Below, in pieces: positions 3,349 through 23,589 of a stretch of 27,712 nt of DNA. The DNA is from a virus. The notes beneath the pieces were generated by a model, which was given only the letters and a program-made list of their open reading frames with translations, did no database searches and was not told where the DNA came from. The translations under genes were made by a program, and so were the position numbers. Position 1 is the stretch's first letter; each line of letters begins with the position of its first letter. The stretch covers positions 1 to 27,712 of IMG/VR virus record IMGVR_UViG_3300018036_000814; one strand, written 5' to 3'.

Positions 3349-4908
3349 TTAGACACTAAACTTTTTGGTTTTATAGTCTGAGATGAATTTTGCTGCTAAA
3401 TCCTTAGGTAATTCAAGCAGTCTTTGTGGTTTTTTCATATCGCGCCATGTGTACTTAGGATCAATCAACCAGTTATGGAATGAGAATACAGTAGGTGGCT
3501 GATCGTTTGTAGGACCCTTGTAAAACTCTAGTTCGATAAACTTTAGCATTTCGTATATGTTTGTTTCATCATTTTCCCAGTTCATAAAAGTCATGCCAGC
3601 CATGCCACCACCTTTAGGCTCTGGTAGTTGGTTAAGTCCGTCTCTCGCTTTTAATCCCTCATACAATCCTCTAAACCTTGGAAATACACCATCAACCCAA
3701 GGTTCGTCATTAGGATTGCTAGCTCTAATTGTAGTTGTATGGTATCCAAACTTTGCAGGGTCTTCAGCATATCGGTTAACTTCATCATATTTTCTAGCTG
3801 CCCCTGTAGGAATCCATAAAGGATTTATGTGTGCTGAGTCGTCGGGCAACCAGTATTCATCAAGCCACTTCTTTGTATCTCTAAGTGTGTCTAATGTTTC
3901 GTGAGGTAGTCCTGCGATTAAATTAATATGCCCACGGTAATGTCCTTTTTTGTTGAAGTGTTCTTTAAACTCCAACAACCCATCTTGCAGTCTTACAGTC
4001 TCCATGCCTTTACCGACTGCCCTACCCGATTTATTATTAAATGATTCTATGCCATAGAAATGAGAGTCTAATCCCAAATCCCACAACATATCCCAATCGT
4101 CTTGCCTACTTACTAATAAGTCACCGCGGATATAGCCACCAAGATTGGGACGAAAAGGTAACTTTCGTACAACACGAGCATATCTATGTAACTTCTCGGA
4201 ATAGTCATTAACAGTTTCATCTGATAATGTGTAGCTAGTCGTACCCCATTGCTCATAATTTCGTAAAAATTCGTCATATAAATTATCCTCGTCTCGGCTG
4301 TGGTCGCCTTTAATGTTTCTGTGCACGAGAGTACAGAAGTGGCAATTAAATATGCAACCTCTGCCTAGTTCTACTGTTAAAATTTCTTGTGGTTGTATGA
4401 AGTCACGTTCTTCATATGAGATTGTAAAGTCTTTTATTCTCGTAGCATCATAGTTATGAGTAGCATCTATATAGTTGTAGCTACCGTGTGTCTCATACTT
4501 TAAGTCTGTTCCTATGTTTGTGAGATGTCTTACAAGTGCTGATATTGCAAGCTCACCGTAGCCAACAATAAGCCAATCAATAGGAACATAGGATGCGTTG
4601 TAATAGGATTGTGTCCCAGCTACAATAGGAATGTGCGGGTATTCAATTTTAGTCCACTCTAAAAATTCTTTAAGTGAATCAAAGTCAACTGTAAATGTAG
4701 CACTAACACCTATAAAGACGGTATCTTTACGAACTCGAAGTTTAAAGTAATCTTTCAGCTCTTCAGTAGTCCAACTTTGTACAAAGTCTACTACCTCAAC
4801 ATCCATACCTTCCTTACGAAGGTGGGACGCTATCCTATGAGCGCCAGGTGCTCTTTTTACAGAGTCGTAGTAATAGTCTACAACCCCACCGAAGATCATG
4901 GCGTGCAT
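3349..4908 (-). CDS. Radical SAM protein with N-terminal B12-binding-like domain
   Basis: The product is 519 residues. Residues 1 to about 130 look like a Rossmann-type cobalamin-binding domain (FIGVSATF, IPIVAGTQSYY, DWLIVGYGELA), though the usual DxHxxG histidine signature is not evident. The core has a canonical radical SAM [4Fe-4S] cluster motif CxxxCxxC at C185, C189 and C192 after VELGRGCIFNC. Downstream (SDETVNDYSEKL, GGYIRGDLL, DSHFYGIESFN, INLIAGLPHET) it follows the beta strands of B12-type radical SAM enzymes. Such enzymes methylate, rearrange or thiolate substrates using SAM; the substrate here is unknown. It starts 2 nt after the stop of the gene upstream and lacks a clear SD, so it is probably translated by coupling. 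A full-length viral copy close to structural genes is unusual. Confidence 0.88.
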   Translation of the reverse strand: MHAMIFGGVVDYYYDSVKRAPGAHRIASHLRKEGMDVEVVDFVQSWTTEELKDYFKLRVRKDTVFIGVSATFTVDFDSLKEFLEWTKIEYPHIPIVAGTQSYYNASYVPIDWLIVGYGELAISALVRHLTNIGTDLKYETHGSYNYIDATHNYDATRIKDFTISYEERDFIQPQEILTVELGRGCIFNCHFCTLVHRNIKGDHSRDEDNLYDEFLRNYEQWGTTSYTLSDETVNDYSEKLHRYARVVRKLPFRPNLGGYIRGDLLVSRQDDWDMLWDLGLDSHFYGIESFNNKSGRAVGKGMETVRLQDGLLEFKEHFNKKGHYRGHINLIAGLPHETLDTLRDTKKWLDEYWLPDDSAHINPLWIPTGAARKYDEVNRYAEDPAKFGYHTTTIRASNPNDEPWVDGVFPRFRGLYEGLKARDGLNQLPEPKGGGMAGMTFMNWENDETNIYEMLKFIELEFYKGPTNDQPPTVFSFHNWLIDPKYTWRDMKKPQRLLELPKDLAAKFISDYKTKKFSV

Positions 4909-10359: not shown

Positions 10360-11148
10360 CTACATGAGCCGAACGAAAGGAAAATTTAACTTACTTTTCA
10401 ATGTGTTAGCCATGGCGTCAAAATCCGGTATTTCTCCTGGATATTTGATCTTCATCTCGACATTATCGTACACAGGCATGATCGTATCGTCGGCTAATCC
10501 GTAGTCTGTAACGATCTTTCTACCGGTTCTGTAGTTGTTTAGAGTGAGGCCTGTGTTGGCTTGTTTTGTTAGTTTATCTAACTCTTTGTGCAAGGGACGA
10601 TCCCCGTAGTGGTGCCCTGTGTAGCTCTCATCATACCCTCCGGCTTCCCAGAACGTGTCCTTATTGACGATAAAACAGTTGATATGCCCAGGGTAAGGGT
10701 ACCATTGTTTCTTGAAAACAGCATACATATTGAACCGATAGATCGTCTTAGGGTTCATAGCTAGCCTTCTGAGATGTCCCACGTCTCCTGGATTGAGTCT
10801 CATGTCCATGTCCAAGAAACATATTTGATCTGTGGGTGCGTATTTTGCTGCTAGGTTTCTACAACCGTGACTATTGAATCCTAAATCACGGGTAACCCTC
10901 CAAAGTTGAAAGTTCACTCCATATGTAAAGTAAACATCTTTCAGTATATCATATGCAGGGTATTCTTCAGAGCCATCATCTATAACCATGATTTCAACCC
11001 CAGGAGGATAGTCCTCCCAGAGTTTGATTTGCTCTTTTAAAAGTTCGGGTTCGTTGTAGTAGGTATAAGCGATAGTCAACCGAGGCGGCATCTTATCCTT
11101 ATTTTCTACTATCCCGTTTTCCTCAAACCACTTCTTCCGTGAAATCAT
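10360..11148 (-). CDS. GT-A fold glycosyltransferase (family 2-like)
   Basis: I place the start at the ATG at 11148 (262 aa) because GAGGA lies about 11 nt upstream; an upstream ATG at 11190 would overlap the previous gene by 68 nt. Near the N-terminus RLTIAYTYYNEPELLKEQI is the nucleotide-sugar-binding strand, D57-D58-G59 (VIDDGS) follows, and D113-M-D115 (FLDMDMRLN) is the DxD metal-binding motif. INCFIVNKDTFWEAGGYDE matches the acceptor-loop region of family 2 enzymes. The enzyme should transfer a sugar from a nucleotide sugar. The acceptor is unknown and could be phage DNA bases, a virion protein or host LPS. Confidence 0.88.
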   Translation of the reverse strand: MISRKKWFEENGIVENKDKMPPRLTIAYTYYNEPELLKEQIKLWEDYPPGVEIMVIDDGSEEYPAYDILKDVYFTYGVNFQLWRVTRDLGFNSHGCRNLAAKYAPTDQICFLDMDMRLNPGDVGHLRRLAMNPKTIYRFNMYAVFKKQWYPYPGHINCFIVNKDTFWEAGGYDESYTGHHYGDRPLHKELDKLTKQANTGLTLNNYRTGRKIVTDYGLADDTIMPVYDNVEMKIKYPGEIPDFDAMANTLKSKLNFPFVRLM

Positions 11149-11452
11149 ATTGTTGTACGTCCTCAGCAGGGAAATCAATTGTTCCCCCATTTTCTAATTG
11201 GAAGTTCTCGCTATGTGTCAAAGAGTTTAGATCATACAATTCGAATCCTGTATAAGTTTCAACGACTCCTTGATTGATCCTTCCTTCTAGGACGTGCATA
11301 AATTTATTTACGGCTTCACCAATATCCTTGAATGTGGGTTCTTCTTCAAATCGATGGATTACATATTCATTGCCACCTACTGCTCGCCACATAGGGACTT
11401 CAGCATTGCCAATGTTATTCCACAGCTTAGTGCAAGCTACTAATTTTAGCAT
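11123..11452 (-). CDS. Hypothetical protein, 109 aa
   Basis: A 109-residue acidic protein with a GGAG ribosome binding site about 9 nt before the ATG. It opens MLKLVACTKLWNNIGNAEVPMWRAVGGNEYVI and continues with predicted helix (DIGEAVNKFMHVLEG) and acidic C-terminal segments. I see no known motif, signal peptide or membrane segment. It overlaps both neighbours by about 26 nt (up- and downstream), indicating a tightly packed operon within the glycosyltransferase/cytidylyltransferase cluster. Confidence 0.7.
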   Translation of the reverse strand: MLKLVACTKLWNNIGNAEVPMWRAVGGNEYVIHRFEEEPTFKDIGEAVNKFMHVLEGRINQGVVETYTGFELYDLNSLTHSENFQLENGGTIDFPAEDVQQYDFTEEVV

Positions 11453-11615
11453 TATAAAACTCCGGGTTCTTTTTAATTTCTTTCAAATCTGCGTTATATT
11501 TAGTTGCCAAAGCCTTAGCTGTTGCAACCCAAAACTTCTTAAAGCTCGGATCGTTTGCTCGGTTTGCCGCTTGAATACAATTTGCAATTTTGCGTTCTAC
11601 TTTTTCTTTTGTCAT
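11427..11615 (-). CDS. Small basic hypothetical protein, 62 aa
   Basis: A 62-residue, Lys- and Ala-rich, probably two-helix protein (MTKEKVERKIANCIQAANRAN, then FKKFWVATAKALATKYNADLKEIKKNPEFY). GAGG lies about 8 nt before the ATG. It begins 3 nt downstream of the TagD-like stop and overlaps the next gene by 26 nt, so it is part of the same transcript. No motif is recognised. Confidence 0.65.
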   Translation of the reverse strand: MTKEKVERKIANCIQAANRANDPSFKKFWVATAKALATKYNADLKEIKKNPEFYNAKISSLH

Positions 11616-11618
11616 AAT

Positions 11619-12050
11619 TTAAGCCTCTGTTACTCGTTTTCTCAATGATGTGCTACTAAAAGAATGTCGTCTACCATTATATACAATATCAGGAGTTAAC
11701 CCTTTGCCTGTGTAGTCTACATTCTCATACTCTTCACCTATTATACGCACTTTAATAGGCAATGTCAAGAGCAAGTCAACCAAATCGGCTTCTGTGTTAT
11801 ATATGACTATCTCGTCTACATATTTTACTGCCGCCAGTTGTATTTGTCTCTCAACGATTGTTTGTACAGGTTTGTTCTTTTCAGGTCGATCTAAAGTAGG
11901 ATCATTCTGTAAGCCAACGATTAGGAAATCGCAATGGCGTTTGGCTTCTTCCAGCATAGTAATATGCCCAGCATGCAATAGATCGAACGTGCTACAGGTA
12001 AATCCTATAACCTTATCCTTCTTGAACTCCTCGCTATAATTAAGTTTCAT
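11619..12050 (-). CDS. Cytidylyltransferase, glycerol-3-phosphate cytidylyltransferase (TagD)-like
   Basis: I prefer the ATG at 12050 (143 aa) because AGAGG lies 6 nt before it; an ATG at 12056 is an alternative. The protein has the family hallmarks: an N-terminal strand GFTCSTFDLLHAGH containing the HxGH motif, the central DFLIVGLQNDPTLD strand, RQIQLAAVKYVDEIV, and the C-terminal SSTSLRKRV (RTxGISTT-like site). Its length is right for TagD-type enzymes. The expected reaction is CTP plus a phosphorylated alcohol or sugar giving a CDP-product. With glycosyltransferases on both sides, it may supply an activated building block for a surface polymer or a modification (inference). Confidence 0.88.
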   Translation of the reverse strand: MKLNYSEEFKKDKVIGFTCSTFDLLHAGHITMLEEAKRHCDFLIVGLQNDPTLDRPEKNKPVQTIVERQIQLAAVKYVDEIVIYNTEADLVDLLLTLPIKVRIIGEEYENVDYTGKGLTPDIVYNGRRHSFSSTSLRKRVTEA

Positions 12051-12588
12051 CTTCATCCTCTGATATCATATCCTGGCTCCATGATTCTAGTGTGTCATCC
12101 AGCCACTCGTCCCAACCAGCATCTTCCCAAACCTCGTATGAGTCCAAGGGTGTGCCAAGATACTCAGCACGTTTACGCATAAGCCAGTCACCTGACTCTT
12201 CCTCGTATTCTGATTCTCCATCTGAGAATGTCCAAACACCCACGAAGTTATAAAACTCGTCGATGTATTTTGCGGACATTTTTACATCAGCATCTACTTC
12301 AGACATTTTATTTGCTAACTTTTCTAGGAACACCGCGGGCGGTACCCATGCAGATTGAATCCAAGCCCAAGTGTCTTCTGCGTCCTGAAGCCAAGCCCAT
12401 TTAGGACCTACATTCTTCTCCATCCATTCTCGTGAACACCACTCGTCGTCCCAGTCTGGGAGAACCGCGCTGAATTCTAAACCTTCTTCTTTAAGGTCCT
12501 TGATACTTTGAAATGCGTCCTCAAAGATCTTGGTTGCTGATTTATTTGCCTGTACTAGCCAGACGTTGGTCTCTACATGGTTTGCCAT
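12040..12588 (-). CDS. Api92/YubB-like ferredoxin-fold phage protein
   Basis: The product is 182 residues, very acidic and unusually rich in Trp. It opens MANHVETNVWLV. A W-C-S-R-E-W-M-E-K-N-V-G-P-K-W-A-W stretch near residues 50-67 matches the REW...NWGTKW region of Api92/YubB (DUF1281-like) proteins with a ferredoxin-like fold, found in phages and plasmids. The C-terminal half is Asp/Glu-rich (DWLMRKRAEYLG, then WSQDMISEDEDET). Acidic surface proteins of this kind may act as anti-host or DNA-mimic factors, but no function is established. AGGAG supports the start. Its end overlaps the cytidylyltransferase start. Confidence 0.65.
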   Translation of the reverse strand: MANHVETNVWLVQANKSATKIFEDAFQSIKDLKEEGLEFSAVLPDWDDEWCSREWMEKNVGPKWAWLQDAEDTWAWIQSAWVPPAVFLEKLANKMSEVDADVKMSAKYIDEFYNFVGVWTFSDGESEYEEESGDWLMRKRAEYLGTPLDSYEVWEDAGWDEWLDDTLESWSQDMISEDEDET

Positions 12589-12599
12589 TTCTATTGCTC

Positions 12600-13205
12600 C
12601 TATACAATTTTTAAGGTATCTAAATATTTACGCAATCCACCGGTATGGTCTCCACCATAGAGAACAACCTGTGGCGTAAAATTTATTTTCAACAAGTCCG
12701 GATGCTTTTCCATTGGCATAATTATCCGTCCTTTATTCCTAAACAAGCCACGAGATTGTGTAGTATCTTTGGTGACGGTGTTTAGTCTAACATACTTGTC
12801 GGCGTATGTCAAGTTATTTTCGTTGAAAGAGAGAATATATCCTTGGTAATATCTTTGACAAAGATCCCAGCCTTTCAAAGTCTGGTGCTGTAGAAATTTG
12901 TAATTCTCTCGATTCCTTTTACCCGGTGAGGTGTAACCTCTGTGTCCGAGTATCATATAGTCACTATCATGTAAACGGCAAGACCCTGCTCCACTAATTA
13001 TTTTCCCATCTTCTATGGAGACAGAGTATTGGCCTTGGTTTTTCTCGTCATACAGTTCTTCAATGTATAATTTGTACAAGAATGTTTCAGGTTTGCTTTG
13101 CCAATCGTCGGTTGACATATTAGGAGTATCAACAAACGTATTGCACCATTCTTGAACAACGGGGTAGGGTGTTAAACTATCTATTTTTTCAAACGATCTG
13201 AACAT
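12600..13205 (-). CDS. Hypothetical protein in glycosyltransferase cluster, 201 aa
   Basis: I choose the ATG at 13205 (MFRSFEKIDSL) because GGAAAGG lies 6-8 nt upstream; the ATG at 13220 would lie within that region. The protein has beta-strand-like stretches (QYSVSIEDGKIISGAGSCRL, then YMILGHRGYTSPGKRNRENY) and a helical segment (QTLKGWDLCQRYYQGYILSF). These loosely suggest a GNAT-like acetyltransferase fold, but I cannot identify a Q/RxxGxG/A coenzyme A loop. It overlaps the upstream glycosyltransferase stop by 17 nt. Function unknown. Confidence 0.68.
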   Translation of the reverse strand: MFRSFEKIDSLTPYPVVQEWCNTFVDTPNMSTDDWQSKPETFLYKLYIEELYDEKNQGQYSVSIEDGKIISGAGSCRLHDSDYMILGHRGYTSPGKRNRENYKFLQHQTLKGWDLCQRYYQGYILSFNENNLTYADKYVRLNTVTKDTTQSRGLFRNKGRIIMPMEKHPDLLKINFTPQVVLYGGDHTGGLRKYLDTLKIV

Positions 13206-13962
13206 CGCGTACCTTTCCAATATTTCTTTTTTGTATTAATTTTGTTGTATAGACGACCTGCTTAACATCTTGGAAGTAATTCCATAGAGTACCCTGGGTC
13301 ATCTCATATTCGTACAGAACTTTGTCTGTCAAAAAGTATTTTACGTCACTGTTATACAAATCGCAGGCAGCTATAATATCATCACAGGCTTTTATATCCT
13401 CTAGATATGAAAAGTTCATAGCTGCAAACTTACTTAAAATTAAAAATCTATTGAATGGTATCACGCTATTAATGGCTTCTCTAAGCGCACCCATAGCTAC
13501 AATGTTTCTTTTGGAAGGTTCGATTGCTCCGTATTCAAAGAACAATCCATCCTCAATAATGTTTTCCCAAGTATTGACATTCCCGTCATATACCATAGGA
13601 TTATGCCTTTGTCCGAGTACATCTATCTCAGGATTTTCTTCGAGTAAACCCTTAATGTGTTCGAGAGCACCAGGAGCGAGATTGTCGTCTCCGTCGATAG
13701 GAACTAGATGTGTATGTGGGCTCATGGCAAATAAATCTATGACAGAGTTCTTACCTCTGCCAGGTAAGCCGTTGCTGGACGTAATGAAGAATTCAACATT
13801 ATGTTTCTCAGCAACGGCTCTAGCGATTGGGATATAATCTTCATCAAGTGTATTGCACACAACGAAGGCGTCAAAGTATTCCTGCTTTGGTCCCAAACTT
13901 TCAATGCAACGTTCTAAACGTTCGGCATCTCGGTTTGTTAATATCCCAACGAAAAGTTTCAT
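13189..13962 (-). CDS. GT-A fold glycosyltransferase (family 2-like)
   Basis: The product is 257 residues. MKLFVGILTNRDAERLERCIESL opens a typical family 2 fold. VPIDGDDNLAPGALEHI (D90, D92, D93) carries the metal- and sugar-nucleotide-binding DxD. FLILSKFAAMNFSYLEDIKACDDIIAACDLY matches the region that usually holds the catalytic ED. It overlaps the upstream 60-aa gene by 4 nt (ATGA). Donor and acceptor are unknown. It is the second clear GT-A enzyme within 3.5 kb, and the tagD-like gene lies between the two. Confidence 0.86.
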   Translation of the reverse strand: MKLFVGILTNRDAERLERCIESLGPKQEYFDAFVVCNTLDEDYIPIARAVAEKHNVEFFITSSNGLPGRGKNSVIDLFAMSPHTHLVPIDGDDNLAPGALEHIKGLLEENPEIDVLGQRHNPMVYDGNVNTWENIIEDGLFFEYGAIEPSKRNIVAMGALREAINSVIPFNRFLILSKFAAMNFSYLEDIKACDDIIAACDLYNSDVKYFLTDKVLYEYEMTQGTLWNYFQDVKQVVYTTKLIQKRNIGKVRDVQIV

Positions 13963-14141
13963 ACAGTATCTAATGCTTCCAGTAGATCCCTGTAATGAGC
14001 TACTTTTCCTAGCTCTTCTTCAATTGCTTCTGCCCAGCCAGTATGTTCTGGGATTGAAGTCTTACTGTCCATTATTACACGGACGTTCAAGGCATGACGA
14101 TCCCTCGCCGCAATAAAATAATTTCTTAAGATGTCTTCCAT
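13959..14141 (-). CDS. Small conserved phage protein, 60 aa
   Basis: A 60-residue acidic helical protein (MEDILRNYFIAARDRHALNVRVIMDSKTSIPEHTGWAEAIEEELGKVAHYRDLLEAL). AGGA about 8 nt before the ATG supports the start. It lies immediately downstream of the tRNA gene and overlaps the glycosyltransferase start by 4 nt. From memory, similar small proteins (R-D-R-H and S-I-P-E-H motifs) occur in other marine phages. Function unknown. Confidence 0.7.
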   Translation of the reverse strand: MEDILRNYFIAARDRHALNVRVIMDSKTSIPEHTGWAEAIEEELGKVAHYRDLLEALDTV

Positions 14142-14159
14142 AATCTCTTCCTGTTAAAG

Positions 14160-14235
14160 TGGTGCCGGCACCATGAATCGAACACGGGACCTGAGGTTTA
14201 CAAAACCCCTGCTCTACCAGCTGAGCTATACCGGC
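14160..14235 (-). tRNA. tRNA-Thr(UGU), CCA end encoded
   Basis: The minus strand folds into a complete 76-nt cloverleaf. The acceptor stem is GCCGGTA/TGCCGGC (one G-U), the D arm GCTC...GAGC, the anticodon stem GGGGT/ACCTC with loop TTTGTAA (anticodon TGT), and the T arm CCGTG-TTCGATT-CATGG. The discriminator A is followed by encoded CCA. UGU reads ACA (and other ACN by wobble), a Thr codon favoured by AT-rich phage genes. It is the only tRNA seen here and lies between the early small genes and the glycosyltransferase block. Confidence 0.97.
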
Positions 14236-14310
14236 GGTACTTTATATATAAAAATCTGTGAGCAGTTTTTTAGGGCCATGCTCAGGGCACCACATAACGA
14301 AAAGCGCGTC
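14236..14310. other. Short intergenic spacer upstream of tRNA-Thr
   Basis: A 75-nt gap between the HTH gene stop and the tRNA 5' end. It is AT-rich next to the tRNA and holds no clear promoter box, no strong hairpin and no ORF. It may contain the tRNA leader and RNase processing sites, but nothing specific can be read. Confidence 0.4.
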
Positions 14311-14571
14311 TTATTTAAAGATTGTTGCGCCTGCTGCTGTATATGCTGCAGCGATCATTGCTCGGCTTGGGGTACCGAGGCGGTAGACAGTTTTACCTGT
14401 CTTTGTGACATTCGTGTATACAGGGAAACCTGCTTCACGAAGTTCTGCCACACGGGCTCCGACTGATTTGATGCCAAACATCTTAACTGCTTGTGCTTCA
14501 GACAGAGATTGTCCGCTAGTTAGAAAGTTAAGAACTTTCTTAGTTTGAGTTGTGTTTACTGACTTAGTCAT
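14311..14571 (-). CDS. Helix-turn-helix (HTH_39-like) DNA-binding protein
   Basis: An 86-residue protein with a GGAG ribosome binding site. Residues about 10-70 fit a winged helix: KKVLNFLTSGQSLSEAQAVKMFGI forms helices 1-2, KSVGARVAELREAGFPV the recognition helix and wing start, and KTGKTVYRLGTPS the wing. This matches the small HTH_39-type domain common in phages. It follows the early-promoter genes near 15 kb and precedes tRNA-Thr, so it may be a transcriptional regulator of phage or host genes made early. The target is unknown. Confidence 0.75.
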   Translation of the reverse strand: MTKSVNTTQTKKVLNFLTSGQSLSEAQAVKMFGIKSVGARVAELREAGFPVYTNVTKTGKTVYRLGTPSRAMIAAAYTAAGATIFK

Positions 14572-14577
14572 AATATA

Positions 14578-14907
14578 TTATTCTCCAATATTTGATTTAA
14601 CAACGGTTACACTTTCAGCACCCTCAACCTTCGGAGCGGTATTAACCACCCGTTGGGTTTTAGGTACATTCCTAAACACGACTTTCAAAAGAGCATCTTT
14701 TGTTTCTGCATCCGGAATATTGCTATTCTGGAGTACATACTGAGCTGCTTCCTTTTTAGTCATGGCTGACGGTAACTCCACAAAATAATGTGATGAGTTA
14801 TCCTTCAACTTCTTGATGCGGGATACCATATCGTTACCGAACCGAGCCTTACAAGTCCCGTTCGACATTACGCTGTATCCTGCAAATTTAAATGTTTGGT
14901 TTGACAT
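14578..14907 (-). CDS. Hypothetical early protein, 109 aa
   Basis: A 109-residue basic protein (MSNQTFKFAGYSVMSNGTCKARFGNDMVSRIKKL, then AMTKKEAAQYVLQNSNIPDAETKDALLKVVF). GAGGA precedes the ATG. A perfect TTGACT-17-TATAAT promoter lies 35 nt upstream, so it is probably expressed early. I recognise no family. The helix-rich C-terminal half (TKKEAAQYVL, TKDALLKVVF) and net positive charge fit nucleic-acid or host-protein binding, which is speculation. Confidence 0.72.
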   Translation of the reverse strand: MSNQTFKFAGYSVMSNGTCKARFGNDMVSRIKKLKDNSSHYFVELPSAMTKKEAAQYVLQNSNIPDAETKDALLKVVFRNVPKTQRVVNTAPKVEGAESVTVVKSNIGE

Positions 14908-14941
14908 AATTTATCCTCTTTCTCAATTTAATATAACTATT

Positions 14942-14970
14942 ATACTACCGTTTGTTTCTAAAGTCAAGCA
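14942..14970 (-). promoter_or_regulatory. Sigma70-like early promoter P2
   Basis: Minus strand TTGACT (14970-14965), 17 bp, TATAAT (14947-14942), in the context TGCTTGACTTT and GTATAATA. It drives the 109-aa early gene (ATG at 14907) and probably the HTH gene and tRNA-Thr downstream. Confidence 0.88.
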
Positions 14971-14996
14971 CTTTCTGACCAAAATGTGAAATCTTT

Positions 14997-15512
14997 TTAG
15001 GCGACTGCCGCTTCTTTACAAGCGAACCAGTCGCTTAGGAAGTCTTGACTCCATCCGCGATGTCCATCTTCCATAAGATACATACACTTATAGTCGATTC
15101 GCTCCTGGCTAGGGCCCATTAGGAAACTCTCGGTTTTTTCTACGATCTCTCGTCTCATATAACCGAATTCGTCATTCTTTTGGATGCGAGTACCACGGAA
15201 CCTCTTAATCAGTGTGTCGTACTCGATATAGGTAGGTATCTCCCACTCTTGGATATGATCCTCGAGTTTGAAGTCAATATCGTCGATGAGATCGGAGTGA
15301 ATGATGATCTCTTCCCAAGATTCGTTGCGAACCTCGATTAGTGATTCTAGCTTAGCCCAGAAGTCCTTACAGCCCGACTGCTCTACAGTCACGCCTTCCA
15401 TAATGAAGGTATCGCCGCCCTTGAACTTCCAATACTGCGGACACTCGCCCTTGCCGTCCCAATCATGGGCACCATAGTTCTCACGGGTTTGTGTCTGTAT
15501 GACGATTTTCAT
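14997..15512 (-). CDS. Conserved hypothetical early marine-phage protein, 171 aa
   Basis: A 171-residue acidic protein. The opening (MKIVIQTQTRENYGAHDWDGKGECPQYWKFKGGDTFIM) is, from memory, a recurrent signature in cyanophage and pelagiphage hypothetical proteins: I-Q-T-Q...E-N-Y-G-A-H-D-W. A second strand-rich part includes EIIIHSDLIDD and EIPTYIEYDTLIKRFRG, ending with MYLMEDGHRGWSQDFLSDWFACKEA. GGAG lies 8 nt before the ATG, and a consensus TTGACA-17-TATAAT promoter lies 35 nt upstream. This is expected to be an early, possibly host-takeover gene. No catalytic motif is recognised. Confidence 0.75.
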   Translation of the reverse strand: MKIVIQTQTRENYGAHDWDGKGECPQYWKFKGGDTFIMEGVTVEQSGCKDFWAKLESLIEVRNESWEEIIIHSDLIDDIDFKLEDHIQEWEIPTYIEYDTLIKRFRGTRIQKNDEFGYMRREIVEKTESFLMGPSQERIDYKCMYLMEDGHRGWSQDFLSDWFACKEAAVA

Positions 15513-15546
15513 GCTCTAAACTCCAATTTCTTCAGTTTATACAAGT

Positions 15547-15575
15547 ATTATACAGGGTATTTTACTAAATGTCAA
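15547..15575 (-). promoter_or_regulatory. Sigma70-like early promoter P3 (full consensus)
   Basis: Minus strand TTGACA (15575-15570), 17 bp, TATAAT (15552-15547): both hexamers and the spacing match the bacterial optimum. The flanks again read TGCTTGACATT and TGTATAATA. The start codon of the 171-aa gene lies 35 nt downstream of the -10. A-rich tracts upstream (AAAAAAGTGAAAAAAAG) could serve as an UP element. Confidence 0.9.
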
Positions 15576-15602
15576 GCATTATTTTGACTTTTTTTCACTT
15601 TT

Positions 15603-16958
15603 TTAGAAGTTTTTGGGTACATCTTCGGGTTTGAGTACGTTATACGGGACTAGATTGGGGGATTTGGCGCCATCTCGCCAGAAATTTCCGTTCATATGTA
15701 GGTCCATATCAGTGAGATAGTCCTCTTCATTGAATGAGTTACAGTAAGCACTAAAGTCCACAAACCAATCGTCATATTTATCCCTATAGGCCTGATAATC
15801 CACTCTATTTTGCGCTATAAGGGTACGTTTATTGCGTAACTGTATAGCATTACACTCTGCGACAACCTGGTTATAGGAGCTCTCAGGGAGGGCACAGATA
15901 CGCTCTACTTCAGCCACGATAGCGTTTAATCGCTCTGCGGGGTCGTATATTGTGTCATATGTTTCGTCTATCCAAGGTGAGAATGATTCGTATCCGCATA
16001 ATTTTAGCTCTTCTAGAAACCCTGGGGTAGTATGTACTAGGTGAGGAGTCTCTGCCATAATAGCTTTGTAGAACTTCTCCGTAGCGAATGAGGGTGAGAA
16101 CTCGTGTACCTTGAGCTTACCCTCATTGTGCAAGTGCAGGGCGTGATTGTAGTTCTTGTATGGTAGGTAGTGTGACTCTACGACAATGTGGAAGTCTGCT
16201 GAGGCAATTGCTCTAGGGACTATTGGCCCAAACTTACTAAGTCTGCCTGTTTTAAAGTGGCTGGTCTCGTTGATCTCATAGGGGATACCAGTGATCCAAC
16301 TCTCACAAGCAGGCTTGCCATATCCCATTTCCCTAGCCATGTCCAGAAGAGTTTGAATGGGATACCTAAAGTAATTTCCATCAAAGCCAGTTTCATATGG
16401 GTTTAGATTGTGAAACGAGTATGAGAAGTGTTTGAGTAGATTCTTATCTACGAGTTTTAGGTATAGCTCGAACCTGTCCTCGTTAAAGTTTCTGCTAAGT
16501 ATATTGAATTTGGTTCGTTCTGTTAATTCAGAGGTATCAACATTCTTACATCTAACCTGCAAAGGACTATATAGAACAAATTCAATGTCTGGGATATCGG
16601 AAAATATTCTTTGACAGAACTTTCTGAACATCTGATCTTTAACCACGAATACTATCTTGTTACCAGGTATCTGCCACTCTTTTATCCTGCGTCTAAAGTT
16701 TCGAACAACTAGTAGATTAAAATAGTCATCGCAGAAATTAATTAACAGTCTTACATTAGGTTTGGTTTTTAAATGGATTAGATGTGGGTCATCCAAATTA
16801 TTGAAAAGATCTTCGAAAGGATAAGACCTCATTGCTTGATCTAATCTGTCAAACAATAGAACAGCGTTGTCGTCTTCTAATGCCTTGTTCCAAGGTAGAA
16901 TAGGACCGTAAAGATAGATATCCTCTGTTTTAATCCTGTGGTAAAACTTTGTTGGCAT
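15603..16958 (-). CDS. Large protein with fucosyltransferase-like C-terminal half (putative GT-B glycosyltransferase)
   Basis: The product is 451 residues with AAGGA before the ATG. The N-terminal half has alternating strands and helices (NVRLLINFCDDYFNLLVV, then NKIVFVVKDQMFRKF, IEFVLYSPLQVRC). From about residue 290 the sequence (FSPSFATEKFYKAIMAETPHLVHTTPGFLEELKLCGYESFSPWIDETYDTIYDPAERLNAIVAEVERIC) follows the pattern seen in fucosyltransferase-type and related phage proteins: T-E-K-x-x-K-x-I, a P-H strand, G-F-L-x-x-L-x-x-x-G-(Y/F)-x-x-F-x-x-x-x-D-E-x-Y-D. This suggests a GT-B sugar transferase. Substrate unknown. It lies directly downstream of a 2OG-Fe(II) oxygenase. Confidence 0.72.
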   Translation of the reverse strand: MPTKFYHRIKTEDIYLYGPILPWNKALEDDNAVLLFDRLDQAMRSYPFEDLFNNLDDPHLIHLKTKPNVRLLINFCDDYFNLLVVRNFRRRIKEWQIPGNKIVFVVKDQMFRKFCQRIFSDIPDIEFVLYSPLQVRCKNVDTSELTERTKFNILSRNFNEDRFELYLKLVDKNLLKHFSYSFHNLNPYETGFDGNYFRYPIQTLLDMAREMGYGKPACESWITGIPYEINETSHFKTGRLSKFGPIVPRAIASADFHIVVESHYLPYKNYNHALHLHNEGKLKVHEFSPSFATEKFYKAIMAETPHLVHTTPGFLEELKLCGYESFSPWIDETYDTIYDPAERLNAIVAEVERICALPESSYNQVVAECNAIQLRNKRTLIAQNRVDYQAYRDKYDDWFVDFSAYCNSFNEEDYLTDMDLHMNGNFWRDGAKSPNLVPYNVLKPEDVPKNF

Positions 16959-16961
16959 AAC

Positions 16962-17699
16962 CTATTTCCTTGTTGGGATATCGAATGGTTCGTTAGATTC
17001 TTTGTCGTACCAATATAAACTCCTATGAGGTCTATCCTCTGGTTTATAATCGGCATCACTATAGTAATAGAATAATCTAAATGTTGTCCTATGTACACCT
17101 GCAGGACATTTCAGTGGCTCTGGATATCCGTGGAATCCTCGGTTACTGTAATTCCATATTACTGCGCTATTAAATAGGCAAGGGAATTCTTTTACTTTAT
17201 TTTCTTTTTGATTGTCCCAGAACTCTAATGCTCCGCCCCATTCAGGATCCCAATCGGGTGTGAGGTAAACAATTAATGACTGAGCTCTGTGTAATTTGAA
17301 TTGGTCGTTCCAGTTAAAATCAGAATGTACTTGCAAGGAATCGTTGGTCCAACTTTTAGAATACCCACCACCTACAATAAACGGATCGCCTATAGATCCT
17401 TCAGTTCCGGTTATTCTATTTAACCAGTCTATACCTAATGAACTGTGCATAGAGTTTACAAATTCTGTTGCAACAGGTAAGTGTTCTAACTTATTACACT
17501 CTTGCATATGACTTCCCTTGCGATCAAAGGTAGTCCACAGATGTTCGGGCGTGTTTCTTGCCTCGGAAAACATTTTCCTTGCGATCATATCTGGAAGGAA
17601 ATCGTTTAAGTAGACGTGAGGTACTGGAACTTCTGTTTGGTAATTGCTTTTGTATTGCTCAGGCGAGAACTTCTCTCTGATATATCGTATGCTTTCCAA
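16962..17699 (-). CDS. 2OG-Fe(II) oxygenase (prolyl-hydroxylase-like)
   Basis: The product is 245 residues. The jelly-roll iron site is clear: H125-x-D127 in LQVHSDFNW, distal H190 in GFHGYPEP, and an Arg (R204 or R208, in HRTTFRLFYY) to bind 2-oxoglutarate. The strand LIVYLTPDWDPEWGGALEFWD is typical. The substrate could be a protein, nucleobase or small molecule. The best start is a TTG at 17699, directly after the upstream TAA; the first internal ATG would remove the HVYLNDFLP strand. GGAAAG lies just upstream. It is followed after 3 nt by the glycosyltransferase-like gene, so hydroxylation and sugar transfer may be linked (inference). Confidence 0.88.
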   Translation of the reverse strand: MESIRYIREKFSPEQYKSNYQTEVPVPHVYLNDFLPDMIARKMFSEARNTPEHLWTTFDRKGSHMQECNKLEHLPVATEFVNSMHSSLGIDWLNRITGTEGSIGDPFIVGGGYSKSWTNDSLQVHSDFNWNDQFKLHRAQSLIVYLTPDWDPEWGGALEFWDNQKENKVKEFPCLFNSAVIWNYSNRGFHGYPEPLKCPAGVHRTTFRLFYYYSDADYKPEDRPHRSLYWYDKESNEPFDIPTRK

Positions 17700-18760: not shown

Positions 18761-20120
18761 ATCCACCCTTAAATTTATTTGAGGCACCATACTGTGGAGT
18801 CTGTTCAGCACCCGAGTCTTGTAAGTCGGCTTGCGGATTTTCTAAATCAAACAATTTCATTCTCGCTCTATCTACACCAACCATAAATCTTTTGTTCTTA
18901 GTAGGATCAGCATAACGATTCTTCAACTGTTTAACCATCAATTGTCCTAACTGTTCTATCTCTTCTGTACTTATAAGAGCAAACATCAAGTCTGCTGTAG
19001 CAGGCAAACCAAATGATTCTGAGGTATCCGTCAATTCAACGTCACTGTTTCCATAACCACCTCGAGTTGTCTGTGTCGCTGACATAATAGGAATATCAAA
19101 CTCTACTGCCAAGCCACGTAGCTCTTCTGCAATACTCTTAATAATTGTATAGCTGTTCGCGGCATTGCCAGGACGGAATCGAGAACTACCACAAATGTTT
19201 AGATAGTCAATAAAGATAATGTCAGGAGCAAAGTTACGCTTGAGTCTAAGTTCATTCAACAATGCTTTAAAATGTCCGGCGTGTGCTGATGCTGTAGGAT
19301 ATTCTTTAACAATTAACTTACCATTAATCTTTTTATTAATTTTAGAAATCCTATCGTCGAACATACTCTTAGGCATATCCTTCAAATCCTGAATAGGAAT
19401 GTTCATTAAGTTCGCATCAATACGTTCTGCAATTCTTTCCTCGGACATTTCAAGTGTAATGTACAAAACATTTTTGCCTGTGCTAATAGCGCCTGCTGCC
19501 ATATGACACATAAACAAAGACTTACCTACACCTGTACCTGCAAGTGCTATGTTCAATGTTTTATTTGCTAGTCCGCCTTCAGTAATCTTGTTAAACATAT
19601 CCAAGTCAAAGGGCATCTTCTCTTCTAGTCTGTGATAAAATTCAAAACGCTGATCTGCGTTCTCAATATAATCGTGTCCTACGTTATTGTCGAACCCAAC
19701 TGCAAGAGCGTCTGACAATATACTAGGTAATGCATCTGTACTGTACTGCTGATTCTTACCATCAATAATCTGAATCGAATCCATAATAGCATTGTAGAGT
19801 GCCTTGTCCTTACAGAATTTTTCTGTTTCTTCAACCAACCATTTAGTATCTAGTTCTTTATCCTCTACATTGTTGAGGAACTCATTTATCTCTTTGTCCT
19901 CAATCTCAGACACACGTCTATCATCTTGACAGGCAATAACGATTGCCTCTTTACTAGGGCAAGCATTATACTTCTCAGCATACTCCCAAATTTTAAGATA
20001 GATTGTACGTTCTGCAGAGTCGTTGAAATATTCACTTTTCAAAAAAGGAATAACTTTCCTAAGATATTCCTCATCATAAAATAATTTTGTAAGTATAATT
20101 CTTTCGACTCTATTTTCCAT
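18741..20120 (-). CDS. 41: DnaB-like replicative helicase gp41
   Basis: The product is 459 residues, as expected for T4 gp41-type helicases. The N-terminal helical domain (about 1-170) precedes a RecA-like motor. Walker A is GTGVGKS at 195-201, a DnaB-type motif 1a follows as VLYITLEMSEERIAERID, Walker B is IIFIDYLN at about 301-308, and motif 3 is SATQTTRGG. The C-terminal RMKLFDLENPQADLQDSGAE is typical. The hexamer should unwind DNA 5'-3' and recruit primase. Its ATG overlaps the upstream TGA by one base. The gene lies in the early replication block, with uvsX about 1.6 kb upstream. Confidence 0.93.
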   Translation of the reverse strand: MENRVERIILTKLFYDEEYLRKVIPFLKSEYFNDSAERTIYLKIWEYAEKYNACPSKEAIVIACQDDRRVSEIEDKEINEFLNNVEDKELDTKWLVEETEKFCKDKALYNAIMDSIQIIDGKNQQYSTDALPSILSDALAVGFDNNVGHDYIENADQRFEFYHRLEEKMPFDLDMFNKITEGGLANKTLNIALAGTGVGKSLFMCHMAAGAISTGKNVLYITLEMSEERIAERIDANLMNIPIQDLKDMPKSMFDDRISKINKKINGKLIVKEYPTASAHAGHFKALLNELRLKRNFAPDIIFIDYLNICGSSRFRPGNAANSYTIIKSIAEELRGLAVEFDIPIMSATQTTRGGYGNSDVELTDTSESFGLPATADLMFALISTEEIEQLGQLMVKQLKNRYADPTKNKRFMVGVDRARMKLFDLENPQADLQDSGAEQTPQYGASNKFKGGYDDIKF

Positions 20121-20734
20121 CAGCTAAGTTCCAAGTTGTAAACAAATAAACCGTCTCGGTTAAAGTAGTTATCCATTGTGAATAAAATAGCATTATATAT
20201 TACTTCAGGATCAAATGCAACATCTTTTAGTCCTGTTTGGTTAAGTGTTCTACCGGCTTTAATAGGACCAAACTTAATATTGCATATTTGTTTATCTAGG
20301 CAAAAATTGTTAACGTTGCCTTTAGTTCTTCGGTATTCTCTTTCATCGTCGTCTAAGAATATATTTTTAGTTGCCAACAACTCGTCAGAATATTGATCGA
20401 TTGTTCCACCTATGTTAATTAACATTACCCTGTCATTACCTGTAGGCCACATCTTAAGAGTATGCCAGTCTGAATAATGGTTGCCATACAAGTCCATTAA
20501 CATATGCATCTGGGCATCGTCCCATGCCGAAAAGTTATAAGCGTTGTTAATTATAACATCACAATCTTTAGACTTTTCTACAATAGACTGCCTGTCTTCT
20601 GCATTTGAAATATCGTATCCTAGACTTTTAGAGAATCCAATAACATCGTTACCTAACTCCTGTAAGTTTTCAAATACAAGTTTACCAAGTCCTTGTGTAT
20701 GTCCAATGACTGCTATCTTTTTACCCGTGATCAT
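20120..20734 (-). CDS. Short-chain dehydrogenase-like NAD(P)-binding protein
   Basis: The product is 204 residues with AAGGAG before the ATG. It has an SDR-type nucleotide-binding loop (GKKIAVIGHTQGLGK, G11 to G17), the NNA motif at 63-65 (DVIINNAYNF), and a YxxxK pair (Y134, K138) that corresponds to the SDR catalytic residues. It lacks part of the C-terminal substrate loop and is short for the family (usual about 250), so it could be a reductase, dehydratase or epimerase with reduced specificity. It sits between the radical SAM enzyme and gp41 and overlaps the radical SAM stop by 14 nt, which suggests a joint pathway for a sugar or nucleotide derivative (inference). Confidence 0.78.
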   Translation of the reverse strand: MITGKKIAVIGHTQGLGKLVFENLQELGNDVIGFSKSLGYDISNAEDRQSIVEKSKDCDVIINNAYNFSAWDDAQMHMLMDLYGNHYSDWHTLKMWPTGNDRVMLINIGGTIDQYSDELLATKNIFLDDDEREYRRTKGNVNNFCLDKQICNIKFGPIKAGRTLNQTGLKDVAFDPEVIYNAILFTMDNYFNRDGLFVYNLELS

Positions 20735-21602
20735 ATATAATCTCCTTAATTTTTATTTCGTTGGGTCTCATCTGACGGTGAGGAACATCAACTCCTGTAT
20801 TAAATCCTAAGCAGACTCGGCATGCTTGGATATTTGTTTCCGACTCCATCATATTTTTAATCAATTCACCTGTGTTTTCTTGGTGAAGTGGAATTGCATC
20901 TTTGCTAAAATCAAAAGGAGGTTCTATTCCGCTTTGTTCATATAACTTTGCCTTAACATAAGTCATTGGACATCTGTAAAAGTGTCCGCCGTATATTGCA
21001 ATTGCGCTATCCTTCAACCAACATTTTTTCCAAATGTCTAAGGCTTCCTCTTCTGTATTTAATGTGTCTTTATGGTGCATCACTTTGAAATGCCCATTTA
21101 CAATGTTAACCTCAGAACCCTTTGCTACAATATCTCTTTGGTATCCTATTAGGGTTTTAACAACTTCCATGTCTGTTAAAACTCTAAGCTGTAGTTTAGG
21201 ATATATTTTTTGATACCCTTCAATCTTTTTAATTATTTTATCATAGTTTATATTTGTATCTCGGTATATGCTGAGATTAATTGAATCTAAATTTTTCCAA
21301 AATTCTTCAGGCTGAGACAAAAGGTTTATACCATTAGTAATGATACAGTTCATTTTAGCCAGGCCAATCTCTTTAGGGTATTTTAAAAACTCGACAATCT
21401 CTGGGTGTAGTGTACACTCGCCACCTGTGAACCTGGCTACGTCTATTTCATAATACTTATTTAGAGCATCGCAATCCTTTTTAAATTGCTCTAAAGATTC
21501 AAACTCTGGTTTTAGATATGGACTTGCCATAGAACAATTTAGACACTTCAGGTTGCAATGCAACACTGGGTACATTTCAATATAGGTCTTTTTATACTTC
21601 AA
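20721..21602 (-). CDS. Radical SAM enzyme with SPASM-like C-terminal cysteines
   Basis: The product is 293 residues counting from the TTG at 21602. I choose this start because AAGGA lies upstream and the N-terminal strand (KTYIEMYPVLHC) is needed by the fold; the alternative ATG at 21575 would remove it. The radical SAM cluster motif is C16xxxC20xxC23, followed by GGECTLHP at 60-67, the GGE motif that binds SAM. C-terminal cysteines (KKCWLKD, YRCPMTY, ACRVCLG) resemble auxiliary-cluster ligands of SPASM/twitch-type enzymes that modify peptides or sugars. The overlap with the SDR-like gene indicates co-translation. Substrate unknown. Confidence 0.88.
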   Translation of the reverse strand: MKYKKTYIEMYPVLHCNLKCLNCSMASPYLKPEFESLEQFKKDCDALNKYYEIDVARFTGGECTLHPEIVEFLKYPKEIGLAKMNCIITNGINLLSQPEEFWKNLDSINLSIYRDTNINYDKIIKKIEGYQKIYPKLQLRVLTDMEVVKTLIGYQRDIVAKGSEVNIVNGHFKVMHHKDTLNTEEEALDIWKKCWLKDSAIAIYGGHFYRCPMTYVKAKLYEQSGIEPPFDFSKDAIPLHQENTGELIKNMMESETNIQACRVCLGFNTGVDVPHRQMRPNEIKIKEIIYDHG

Positions 21603-21616
21603 TTAATATAATATCC

Positions 21617-21805
21617 TTAACGAACGTCTTCTGCTATAAATTCTTCACGAACTACTTCCACACAAACTTCACAAAGATATAACTCTTCGACGTCTGTGTG
21701 AAAGCATAATGCTCGATCTCCTTCCCAAATAGGAACTGAACAGCGATCGCAGGTGCCTTTAGACTTCTTCGTAGACTTGTTGAATATCTTCTGCAGAAAT
21801 TTCAT
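21617..21805 (-). CDS. Small zinc-ribbon protein, 62 aa
   Basis: A 62-residue protein with a basic N-terminus (MKFLQKIFNKSTKKSKG) and two CxxC pairs: C19-x-x-C22 (CDRC) and CEVC near residues 45-48, plus one Cys between. This is the pattern of a treble-clef or rubredoxin-like zinc ribbon. It starts inside the 3' end of uvsX (47-nt overlap, other frame) with only a weak ribosome binding site, so translation is probably coupled. It might modulate the recombinase or bind nucleic acid; this is inference. Confidence 0.7.
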   Translation of the reverse strand: MKFLQKIFNKSTKKSKGTCDRCSVPIWEGDRALCFHTDVEELYLCEVCVEVVREEFIAEDVR

Positions 21806-22832
21806 CTTGCATTATACCTGCTTCGCTTGAAATAATATACCTGTTTTCAATCCACTTAATAAAAGTAGGATCTGATAATACTGGCAACCAGAACTCTTTA
21901 GTGTAAGTATCTTTAGATCTATATTTGCCTTCGATAACTTCACCTGTAGTCATATCCACTTTCTGATACCAGCCGTTGCTAGGCTTGATAACGTGTCCTG
22001 ATTCTATTGCCATGTCAATTAGGCCTGACCACTTGCTAATACCACCTTCAAAGGATACTTCAACAGGGATCTTAGACTTCTCTCTAACAAACCTAGACTT
22101 CTCGACATTAATTACAAAGTCATAACCTGATACATCTGATCCTGTTTTCTGCTGACGTCTGCCAATGATAAAGATATTGTCTGCGGAGTAATACACACCT
22201 GTTCCACCTGATACGATGTCTTTAGGGAACAAACCAATCTCTTTATAAGTGTGGTTAATAACTACTGCTGGAATATCTTTAATTGTAAAGTGAGGAGTAA
22301 CCATACGGAACAAGGACTTCATTTGTTTTGCCCTTGTCATATCAGCTACACTCTTTCCATCTAGTGCGTCATCTACTTCTTTCTTTGACGCTAAGTTACC
22401 AATGGAATCTACAATAATCATAACATGATCGCCACGTTCAATACCATTCAACTGTTGCATAAAGTCATGCTTCAATTGTTCAACATCAGTAATAGGAGTA
22501 TGAACTACTCTGTCTGTATCAATACCAAATGTTTCAAAGTATGCCTGAGGTGCACCAAATTCTGAATCGTAAAAAAGAATAACGCCATCATCATATTTGT
22601 TTAGATAGGACTTAGCCAACAACATAGCAAACGCTGTTTTAAAGTGTTTACTAGGGCCTGCGAATACTGTTAGTCCGGGAGTTAATCCACCGTCTAACCT
22701 ACCGCTTAGTGCCACGTTTAACGCAGGCACCGAAGTCTGAATTAAATCCTTTTTGCCAAAGAATTTAGAGTTTGTTAACTGCGACGTTTCCTTAATCGTC
22801 GAGTTTTTTTGTAGCTTGTCTAGTAAGCTCAT
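21759..22832 (-). CDS. uvsX: RecA-like recombinase UvsX
   Basis: I place the start at the ATG at 22832 (357 aa): AGGAGG lies 7 nt upstream, whereas a TTG further upstream has no SD. The N-terminus MSLLDKLQKNSTIKETSQL is typical of UvsX. Walker A is GPSKHFKT at 59-66, VILFYDSEFGAP follows, VMIIVDSIGNL is Walker B, and FTIKDIPAVVINHTY matches the L2-adjacent strand. UvsX forms filaments on ssDNA and drives recombination-dependent replication and repair in T4-like phages. It has its own sigma70-like promoter within the upstream gene. The first 41 nt overlap the UDP-sugar dehydrogenase gene. Confidence 0.94.
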   Translation of the reverse strand: MSLLDKLQKNSTIKETSQLTNSKFFGKKDLIQTSVPALNVALSGRLDGGLTPGLTVFAGPSKHFKTAFAMLLAKSYLNKYDDGVILFYDSEFGAPQAYFETFGIDTDRVVHTPITDVEQLKHDFMQQLNGIERGDHVMIIVDSIGNLASKKEVDDALDGKSVADMTRAKQMKSLFRMVTPHFTIKDIPAVVINHTYKEIGLFPKDIVSGGTGVYYSADNIFIIGRRQQKTGSDVSGYDFVINVEKSRFVREKSKIPVEVSFEGGISKWSGLIDMAIESGHVIKPSNGWYQKVDMTTGEVIEGKYRSKDTYTKEFWLPVLSDPTFIKWIENRYIISSEAGIMQDEISAEDIQQVYEEV

Positions 22833-23589
22833 AATTACACCTCCTAATAGTGTTTTGTTCAAGTGCAGTTTCTAATATATTATATGTATTGTAACACATA
22901 CTTGCCATGTGTGTCAAGTCCTTAGGGAAACAAGTTCCCCCAAAACCAGGCATTCCATCAGGACCAGGTGCCTGCCAATGAGTACCACCCGTCCAAGGAT
23001 CAAGTTGTAATAGTTTTTCTATTTCTTTGTAGTCAATTTCCATGCGATCACACATTTCTTTGTATTCATTCGCAAGTGCTACCCTCATTGCTAGTGCCGA
23101 GTTTCTTGCTAACTTAAAAAAGCTAGCCTCCTTCGGTGTCAACATTGTTACAATTTTCAGCAAGTCAAACATTGAAACAAACTCGTACATTTTGTTCACA
23201 TTATATGAACCACCAACACAACCAATAATAAAGGGCAATGTGGTGCTATCTACATCTTCTTTCCAGGATCGTTCACGTAGAAACTCTGGCATGATGATTG
23301 CACCTTCAAACAAATCAACTTGATCGGGTCCTATAGTAGAGCGAATGATAATATCACCTGTGTTCTTTTCTTTATATTCATTGAACACCTGTTGTAATAG
23401 TGAAATGTCTAATTCTCTGCCTTTATTTGGTGTAGGTACACAAAGGAAAGTATAATCAAAATCCGTTTCCTCACATAGCATACCTAAGGCAGGATCTTGA
23501 ATGAAAATATTTTCTTTATCTACAACCCTTTGTAGCAAGTACTCTGTTGCCTTTCCTACAAAACCATAACCTACAATTAAAAATCTCAT
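22792..23589 (-). CDS. Short UDP-glucose/GDP-mannose dehydrogenase-like enzyme
   Basis: The product is 265 residues. The NAD-binding Rossmann motif is G7-Y-G-F-V-G12 in LIVGYGFVGKAT. FLCVPTPN, PEFLRER and KLARNSALAMRVALANEYKEMCDRM follow the family core (E and N/K catalytic region). GFGGTCFPKDL contains the nucleophilic C220. Family members oxidise UDP-glucose or GDP-mannose to the uronic acid, but full-length enzymes have about 400-430 residues. This one stops soon after the catalytic Cys and lacks the C-terminal UDP-binding domain, so its activity or substrate may differ. It starts within the gp43 stop (ATGA overlap), and its 3' end carries the uvsX promoter. Confidence 0.88.
   Translation of the reverse strand: MRFLIVGYGFVGKATEYLLQRVVDKENIFIQDPALGMLCEETDFDYTFLCVPTPNKGRELDISLLQQVFNEYKEKNTGDIIIRSTIGPDQVDLFEGAIIMPEFLRERSWKEDVDSTTLPFIIGCVGGSYNVNKMYEFVSMFDLLKIVTMLTPKEASFFKLARNSALAMRVALANEYKEMCDRMEIDYKEIEKLLQLDPWTGGTHWQAPGPDGMPGFGGTCFPKDLTHMASMCYNTYNILETALEQNTIRRCNYELTRQATKKLDD
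22888..22917 (-). promoter_or_regulatory. Sigma70-like promoter P4 for uvsX (inside upstream gene)
   Basis: Minus strand TTGACA (22917-22912), 18 bp, TACAAT (22893-22888), lying within the coding sequence of the UDP-sugar dehydrogenase. The uvsX ATG is 56 nt downstream of the -10, with an AGGAGG ribosome binding site at 22845-22840. Confidence 0.65.

Follow-up and report, generated by a model that had tools for sequence, protein, structure and literature searches.

A twitch-type radical SAM protein and an SDR-like protein encoded as an overlapping gene pair in the replication block of a marine T4-like phage

Introduction

Radical SAM genes are frequent among the auxiliary genes of aquatic phages, and their functions are guessed. 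A Baltic Sea survey counted 261 instances of "ahbD" and called the function speculative (PMC9301287). The stretch of DNA described here (27,712 nucleotides, hereafter the window) is a 27.7-kb contig covering part of the genome of a marine T4-like phage, and it carries a radical SAM gene that overlaps the gene of a short SDR-like protein in the midst of replication genes. What do the two proteins do, do they work together, and does their place mean that DNA is their substrate? As discussed below, the pair is real and conserved and its chemistry can be interpreted; it is a phage version of an enzyme type already known, and it probably serves the phage in remodeling a molecule of the sugar type.

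The gene pair and its neighborhood

The genes considered are the following.

20721..21602, minus strand: radical SAM / twitch oxidoreductase, 293 amino acids, TTG start (PF04055, SpeY 7wzv and Foldseek matches)
20120..20734, minus strand: putative short SDR-like NAD(P)-dependent reductase, 204 amino acids (motifs; family relatives match adh_short, PF00106, above cut-off)
20721..20734, minus strand: overlap of the two genes, 14 nucleotides, read from the sequence
21617-21805, minus strand: zinc-ribbon-like ORF, 62 amino acids, CxxC...CxxC, between uvsX and the radical SAM gene and overlapping the 3' end of uvsX
22792..23589, minus strand: short UDP-glucose/GDP-mannose dehydrogenase-like protein (PF00984, E 1.6e-16)

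The earlier note had described two genes sharing 14 nucleotides between uvsX and gp41, and both the overlap and the location are as it had them, the interval also holding the zinc-ribbon-like ORF. The upstream uvsX product is 53% identical to T4 UvsX, and directly downstream of the pair lies the gp41 helicase (a DnaB_C match and homologue of T4 gp41). The radical SAM gene starts with TTG, with AAGGA 11 nucleotides upstream, and the SDR gene has its own Shine-Dalgarno sequence, AAGGAG at 20742-20747, which is located 7 nucleotides before the ATG and within the 3' part of the radical SAM gene. The window's DNA polymerase is closest to those of marine cyanophages, and its identity to the enzyme of any annotated phage is at most about 48%.

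Occurrence of the pair in other phages

No homologue of the radical SAM or the SDR protein was found in annotated phages at E<=1e-3. In IMG/VR, however, the search for the same pair that the earlier note had proposed gave a positive answer, and the two genes co-occur in three divergent lineages including that of the window. Lineage 1 consists of the window and further IMG/VR contigs that carry both genes or a portion of the pair at 97-100%. In lineage 2 the radical SAM protein is 51% and the SDR 78% identical to those of the window and the genes lie 11 kb apart; the lineage-2 contigs with one gene only end before the position of the other. Lineage 3 is a 162-kb near-complete contig (radical SAM 44%, SDR 33-36%), in which the genes overlap by 8 nucleotides, likewise between uvsX and gp41, and the next genes encode a P-loop kinase and a nucleotidylyltransferase-like protein. 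Both genes are present in all contigs of lineages 1 to 3 that are long enough, and they overlap in lineages 1 and 3. The UDP-glucose/GDP-mannose dehydrogenase-like gene accompanies them in all three lineages and is a possible associated gene. More distant radical SAM proteins have 31-38% identity, and no SDR was detected on their contigs.

The relatedness of the genes is discordant: between the window and lineage 3 the polymerase is 78% and the SDR 33-36% identical, while between the window and lineage 2 the values are 61% and 78%, respectively. The genes have therefore been exchanged separately, yet they recur together. Both are under purifying selection, with dN/dS of about 0.08-0.27 (about 0.15 for the SDR between lineages 1 and 2). 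Because the pair is kept under such selection in further lineage 1 contigs and in two divergent lineages, its association is more than chance.

Some other genes of these phages deserve mention. The zinc-ribbon-like ORF is kept in lineages 2 and 3 (45-61%), and T4 has gene 40 at this place. On contig L156 a P-loop kinase of the lineage-3 type (1520-1966) is located between uvsX and gp41 without an SDR. The window also has, at 10360-17699 on the minus strand, a block of two GT2-like glycosyltransferases, a heptose/cytidylyltransferase-like protein, a 451-amino-acid protein and a 2OG-Fe(II) oxygenase, which is mostly common to lineage 3 and not to lineage 2. A second radical SAM protein (3349-4908, minus strand, 519 amino acids), with a B12-binding match (PF02310) slightly below cut-off, is confined to lineage 1 as far as the compared contigs go.

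The radical SAM protein as a twitch enzyme

The residues important for the assignment are as follows.

21534..21557, minus strand: CNLKCLNC, radical SAM [4Fe-4S] cluster motif (C16, C20, C23), invariant in the radical SAM alignment including the hygromycin-cluster protein
21414..21425, minus strand: GGEC, residues 60-63, SAM-binding GGE motif; GGE is invariant in the alignment
20811..21023, minus strand: twitch auxiliary-cluster region (C194, C211, C261, C264), invariant in the alignment and the SpeY fragment
21003..21005, minus strand: A200, aligned with HygY Cys183 (alignment of phage radical SAM proteins, SpeY and the SAT1 homologue)

In Pfam the protein matches Radical_SAM (PF04055) only, with E 1.4e-11 and 45.2 bits against a cut-off of 29.5, and C16, C20 and C23 are invariant, so it belongs to the superfamily. 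The CxxxCxxC and GGEC motifs previously claimed are there as C16-x3-C20-x2-C23 and G60-G61-E62-C63, and the "extra Cys pairs" turned out to be C194/C211 and C261/C264, arranged in the twitch (half-SPASM) pattern C-x11-G-x4-C ... C-x2-C, which is also found in the phage relatives, in HygY-type proteins and in SpeY. All seven Cys residues (16, 20, 23, 194, 211, 261 and 264) are invariant across phage and bacterial members, the same seven occur in SpeY, and they fit one radical SAM cluster plus one predicted twitch cluster. Judged from these residues, the protein is a twitch enzyme of the SpeY/HygY/BtrN type, and binding of an auxiliary [4Fe-4S] cluster is predicted.

The best solved relative by sequence is SpeY (PDB 7wzv; also 7wzx and 7x0b), with a phmmer E of 4.6e-20 and a profile E of 1.8e-24 (next best 1e-3). 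The alignment consists of two collinear segments, the radical SAM core and the C-terminal Cys region, although identity to SpeY- and HygY-type enzymes is about 20-30% only. In addition to this low identity, the window protein differs from SpeY in being phage-encoded and partnered by a short SDR. A predicted structure of the protein gave a Foldseek match to the same entry, "Twitch Radical SAM Dehydrogenase" SpeY (E 9e-14, 272 columns), from a low-confidence model (pLDDT about 56). Since the predicted structures are poor, fold matches were relied on only where the sequence agrees. MoaA and QueE readings were rejected, the match going to SpeY and not to QueE.

In plasmids the sole near full-length match is a radical SAM protein of Streptomyces sp. 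SAT1 (L041; >90% of the length, E 1e-19), a HygY homologue. The SAT1 locus is a hygromycin B cluster, because it also holds APH(7'')-Ia, and directly after its radical SAM gene comes one for an NAD-dependent epimerase/dehydratase. The order of a radical SAM gene and then an SDR-superfamily gene is the same in SAT1 and in the window, but the SAT1 SDR is of the extended type and its similarity to the phage SDR is not detectable. A scan of the genome collection gave a weak Lokiarchaeal radical SAM match only.

The residue at the position of HygY Cys183

HygY is reportedly an epimerase in which Cys183 gives the hydrogen back to the substrate, and its C183A mutant is said to be a dehydrogenase. The alignment column of window A200 is taken here to be the site of this hydrogen donor. 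The residue is Cys in the SAT1 homologue, Ser in SpeY, Ala in the window lineage and Thr in lineages 2 and 3, so the SDR-linked phage proteins differ from HygY-type epimerases and share the absence of the donor Cys with SpeY-type dehydrogenases; alcohol oxidation by the window protein is predicted from the state of this residue. In contrast, the column is Cys in most of the close relatives on whose contigs no SDR was detected (L070, L100/L106, L102/L105, L156-L162 and L158). The correlation is imperfect, since Tyr stands there in L148-L152, where no SDR was found on the contigs searched, and still more distant relatives are variable (S, R, T, C).

In the trees, the SDR-linked radical SAM proteins form one group (0.907), as do their SDRs (0.993), and because of this the contrast between donor Cys and SDR linkage is a single evolutionary transition kept over large divergence. 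It gives a prediction at the residue level: where the donor Cys is present, a one-enzyme epimerase is expected, and where it is absent, a dehydrogenase with a reductase partner. In this way one phage family of radical SAM genes is now tied to a chemically defined group, the SpeY/HygY twitch oxidoreductases.

The SDR-like protein and the question of a functional pair

The motifs of the SDR-like protein are listed below.

20684..20704, minus strand: GHTQGLG, dinucleotide-binding motif (G11, G15, G17); the three Gly are invariant in the SDR alignment
20540..20548, minus strand: NNA, residues 63-65 (sequence and family alignment)
20405..20407, minus strand: G110, followed by T111; all other aligned family members have the catalytic Ser
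20321..20335, minus strand: Y134-x3-K138, catalytic motif; Y134 and K138 are invariant in the SDR alignment

The NNA and YxxxK motifs of the earlier description were thus recovered (N63-N64-A65 and Y134-x3-K138) together with G11-x3-G15-x-G17, so that both classical SDR signatures, GxxxGxG and NNA, are present. Against Pfam the window protein gives no adh_short or Epimerase match above cut-off and only RmlD_sub_bind at 15.8 bits, but relatives exceed the cut-offs (L121 and L137 for adh_short, L123 for Epimerase). The fold search found generic FabG-like Rossmann matches with TM of about 0.25. In the Ser-Tyr-Lys triad, Tyr134 and Lys138 are conserved, and the Ser is kept in lineages 2 and 3 as well as in further relatives. 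In the window lineage Gly110 replaces this catalytic Ser and only T111 is adjacent, so the activity of its SDR could be impaired.

Many phages that lack this radical SAM gene have an SDR of the family, often directly behind a 2OG-Fe(II) oxygenase, which weakens the exclusivity of the link and suggests that these SDRs may generally be reductase partners of oxidizing enzymes. The oxygenase-linked SDRs of marine phages (L137 and L131) have the signature GHTxG(I/L)G...GYDIS...NNA in common with the window SDR, and they differ in the intact Ser, in the partner and in the absence of the insertions shared by the SDRs of the radical SAM-linked clade. On these two contigs (4426-5537 in L137, 4426-5540 in L131) a 2OG-Fe(II)-oxygenase-like protein overlaps the small SDR by 4 nucleotides, and the oxygenase-SDR pair is recurrent in marine T4-like phages.

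It might be supposed from these facts that there is no functional pair, with the radical SAM protein working by itself and the SDR serving as an unconnected auxiliary reductase that may even be inactive in lineage 1. The 11-kb separation in lineage 2, the SDRs living without the radical SAM gene, the loss of Ser in lineage 1 and the discordance of core genes, SDR and radical SAM all speak for it and weigh against a joint module. However, the co-occurrence is constant in spite of the discordant histories, there are two overlapping arrangements, the SDR clade is specific to the lineages bearing the radical SAM gene, and the SDR itself is under purifying selection. Separate action is therefore regarded as unlikely.

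Proposed function in sugar tailoring

Our tentative reading, held with somewhat less than even confidence, is that the pair is a two-enzyme module changing one stereocenter or oxidation state of a small sugar- or cyclitol-like molecule. In the first step, the twitch radical SAM protein, with SAM and one auxiliary [4Fe-4S] cluster, would take the hydrogen from a C-H bond of a secondary alcohol, the second electron would pass to the auxiliary cluster and a ketone would be released, as with the dehydrogenases SpeY and BtrN. Release of the ketone is expected because the protein is without the hydrogen-returning Cys of the epimerase HygY. In the second step, the SDR partner would use NAD(P)H to reduce this ketone, probably at the opposite face, to give a net epimerization or another tailored alcohol. 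For a radical SAM enzyme that hands its product to a reductase, AprD4/AprD3 (see below) offers a precedent. The product would most likely feed a phage-directed glycan, for instance one of the host surface or the virion, which may be made by the phage's own glycosyltransferases and nucleotide-sugar enzymes. Of the earlier suggestion that the pair could modify a nucleotide sugar or a peptide, the sugar part fits roughly, the closest relatives, SpeY and the hygromycin-cluster protein, acting on hydroxyls of sugars or aminocyclitols; the peptide part is dealt with below. If the reading is true, phages have evolved an aminoglycoside-type sugar chemistry of their own.

A related possibility is a deoxygenation like that of AprD4/AprD3, in which a radical SAM diol dehydratase feeds an NAD(P)H reductase partner on an aminoglycoside (PMC5461906). 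Compared by description, the phage pair has the same logic of a radical SAM enzyme followed by a reductase, and here a 1,2-diol would be dehydrated to a ketone, the SDR would reduce it and the sugar would lose a hydroxyl. The best match, however, is the dehydrogenase SpeY and not a dehydratase, so this route is considered distinctly unlikely.

Modification of DNA or nucleotides

The early region around uvsX and gp41 is one where T4-like phages carry many unrelated auxiliary genes, which speaks against a link with DNA. The family nevertheless recurs among replication and nucleotide genes: beside uvsX and gp41 in the window, lineage 3 and L150, near gp41 in L156, after DNA ligase in lineage 2, between nrdA and nrdB in L070 and after gp46 in L105. 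For this reason a nucleotide substrate is kept as a possibility. The pair might modify a (deoxy)nucleotide or a sugar attached to phage DNA, and in keeping with this, the T4 interval from 43 to uvsX holds gp42 and bgt, and lineage 3 has two QueC-like proteins and one QueD-like protein, none of them linked to the pair. On the other hand, the near-complete lineage-3 genome has no homologue of T4 gp42, bgt, agt or gp56 and no PF00303 protein, so it lacks a base hydroxymethylase of the thymidylate-synthase type and the T4 glucosyltransferases. In the examined contigs as a whole, the 162-kb relative included, PF00303, gp42, bgt and agt are missing, the window covering part of its genome. In addition, the radical SAM protein matches SpeY, not QueE. 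DNA hypermodification, raised earlier as one option on account of the location, is thus not supported by the gene content, although the location itself and its recurrence stand, and modification of a nucleotide or DNA-linked sugar by the pair is quite improbable.

A wider form may be imagined, in which the phage twitch family of the replication and nucleotide blocks acts on a sugar hydroxyl of a nucleotide or of a glycan attached to phage DNA, oxidizing or inverting it, one clade having split the epimerase reaction between a radical SAM protein lacking the donor Cys and a dedicated SDR. This is speculative and has a small probability; if true, it would mean that phages modify their nucleic acids or the precursors of these in a new way.

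In the lineage-3 phage, two adjacent QueC-like PP-loop proteins are encoded between nrdA and nrdB (L075, 15749-17025). The twitch radical SAM gene of L070 occupies the same slot, which is therefore an insertion hotspot.

Viperin and peptide maturases

A phage viperin-like enzyme producing a modified nucleotide is very improbable. PADLOC pVip profiles do match the protein (E 7e-11, 40 bits) and viperin structures are among its Foldseek matches, but the profile match is limited to residues 14-112, the common radical SAM core, and for the C-terminal twitch region with its four Cys the alignment is to SpeY, which scores far better, so the identity was rejected. A peptide (RiPP) epimerase or maturase pair is just as hard to believe and was also rejected, the NCBIfam RiPP maturase models giving weak core-domain matches far below their cut-offs (e.g., YydG, 18 bits against 300) and no precursor peptide gene being seen beside the pair.

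Related gene clusters in other phages

Phage relatives and distant cousins of the radical SAM protein are found near glycosyltransferases, an aminotransferase and amidinotransferases. The "BtrN" proteins of Campylobacter phages and the radical SAM protein of cyanophage S-SCSM2R are likewise phage-encoded and weakly related to the window protein (tblastn E 1e-3 or worse); their neighbors include an amidinotransferase, an aminotransferase and glycosyltransferases, and unlike the window protein they have no SDR partner annotated beside them. In S-SCSM2R (L040, 5134-11887) the radical SAM gene lies with those of a sugar-type aminotransferase, an inosamine-type amidinotransferase, 2OG oxygenases and several glycosyltransferases, a cluster that looks like an aminocyclitol-type pathway.
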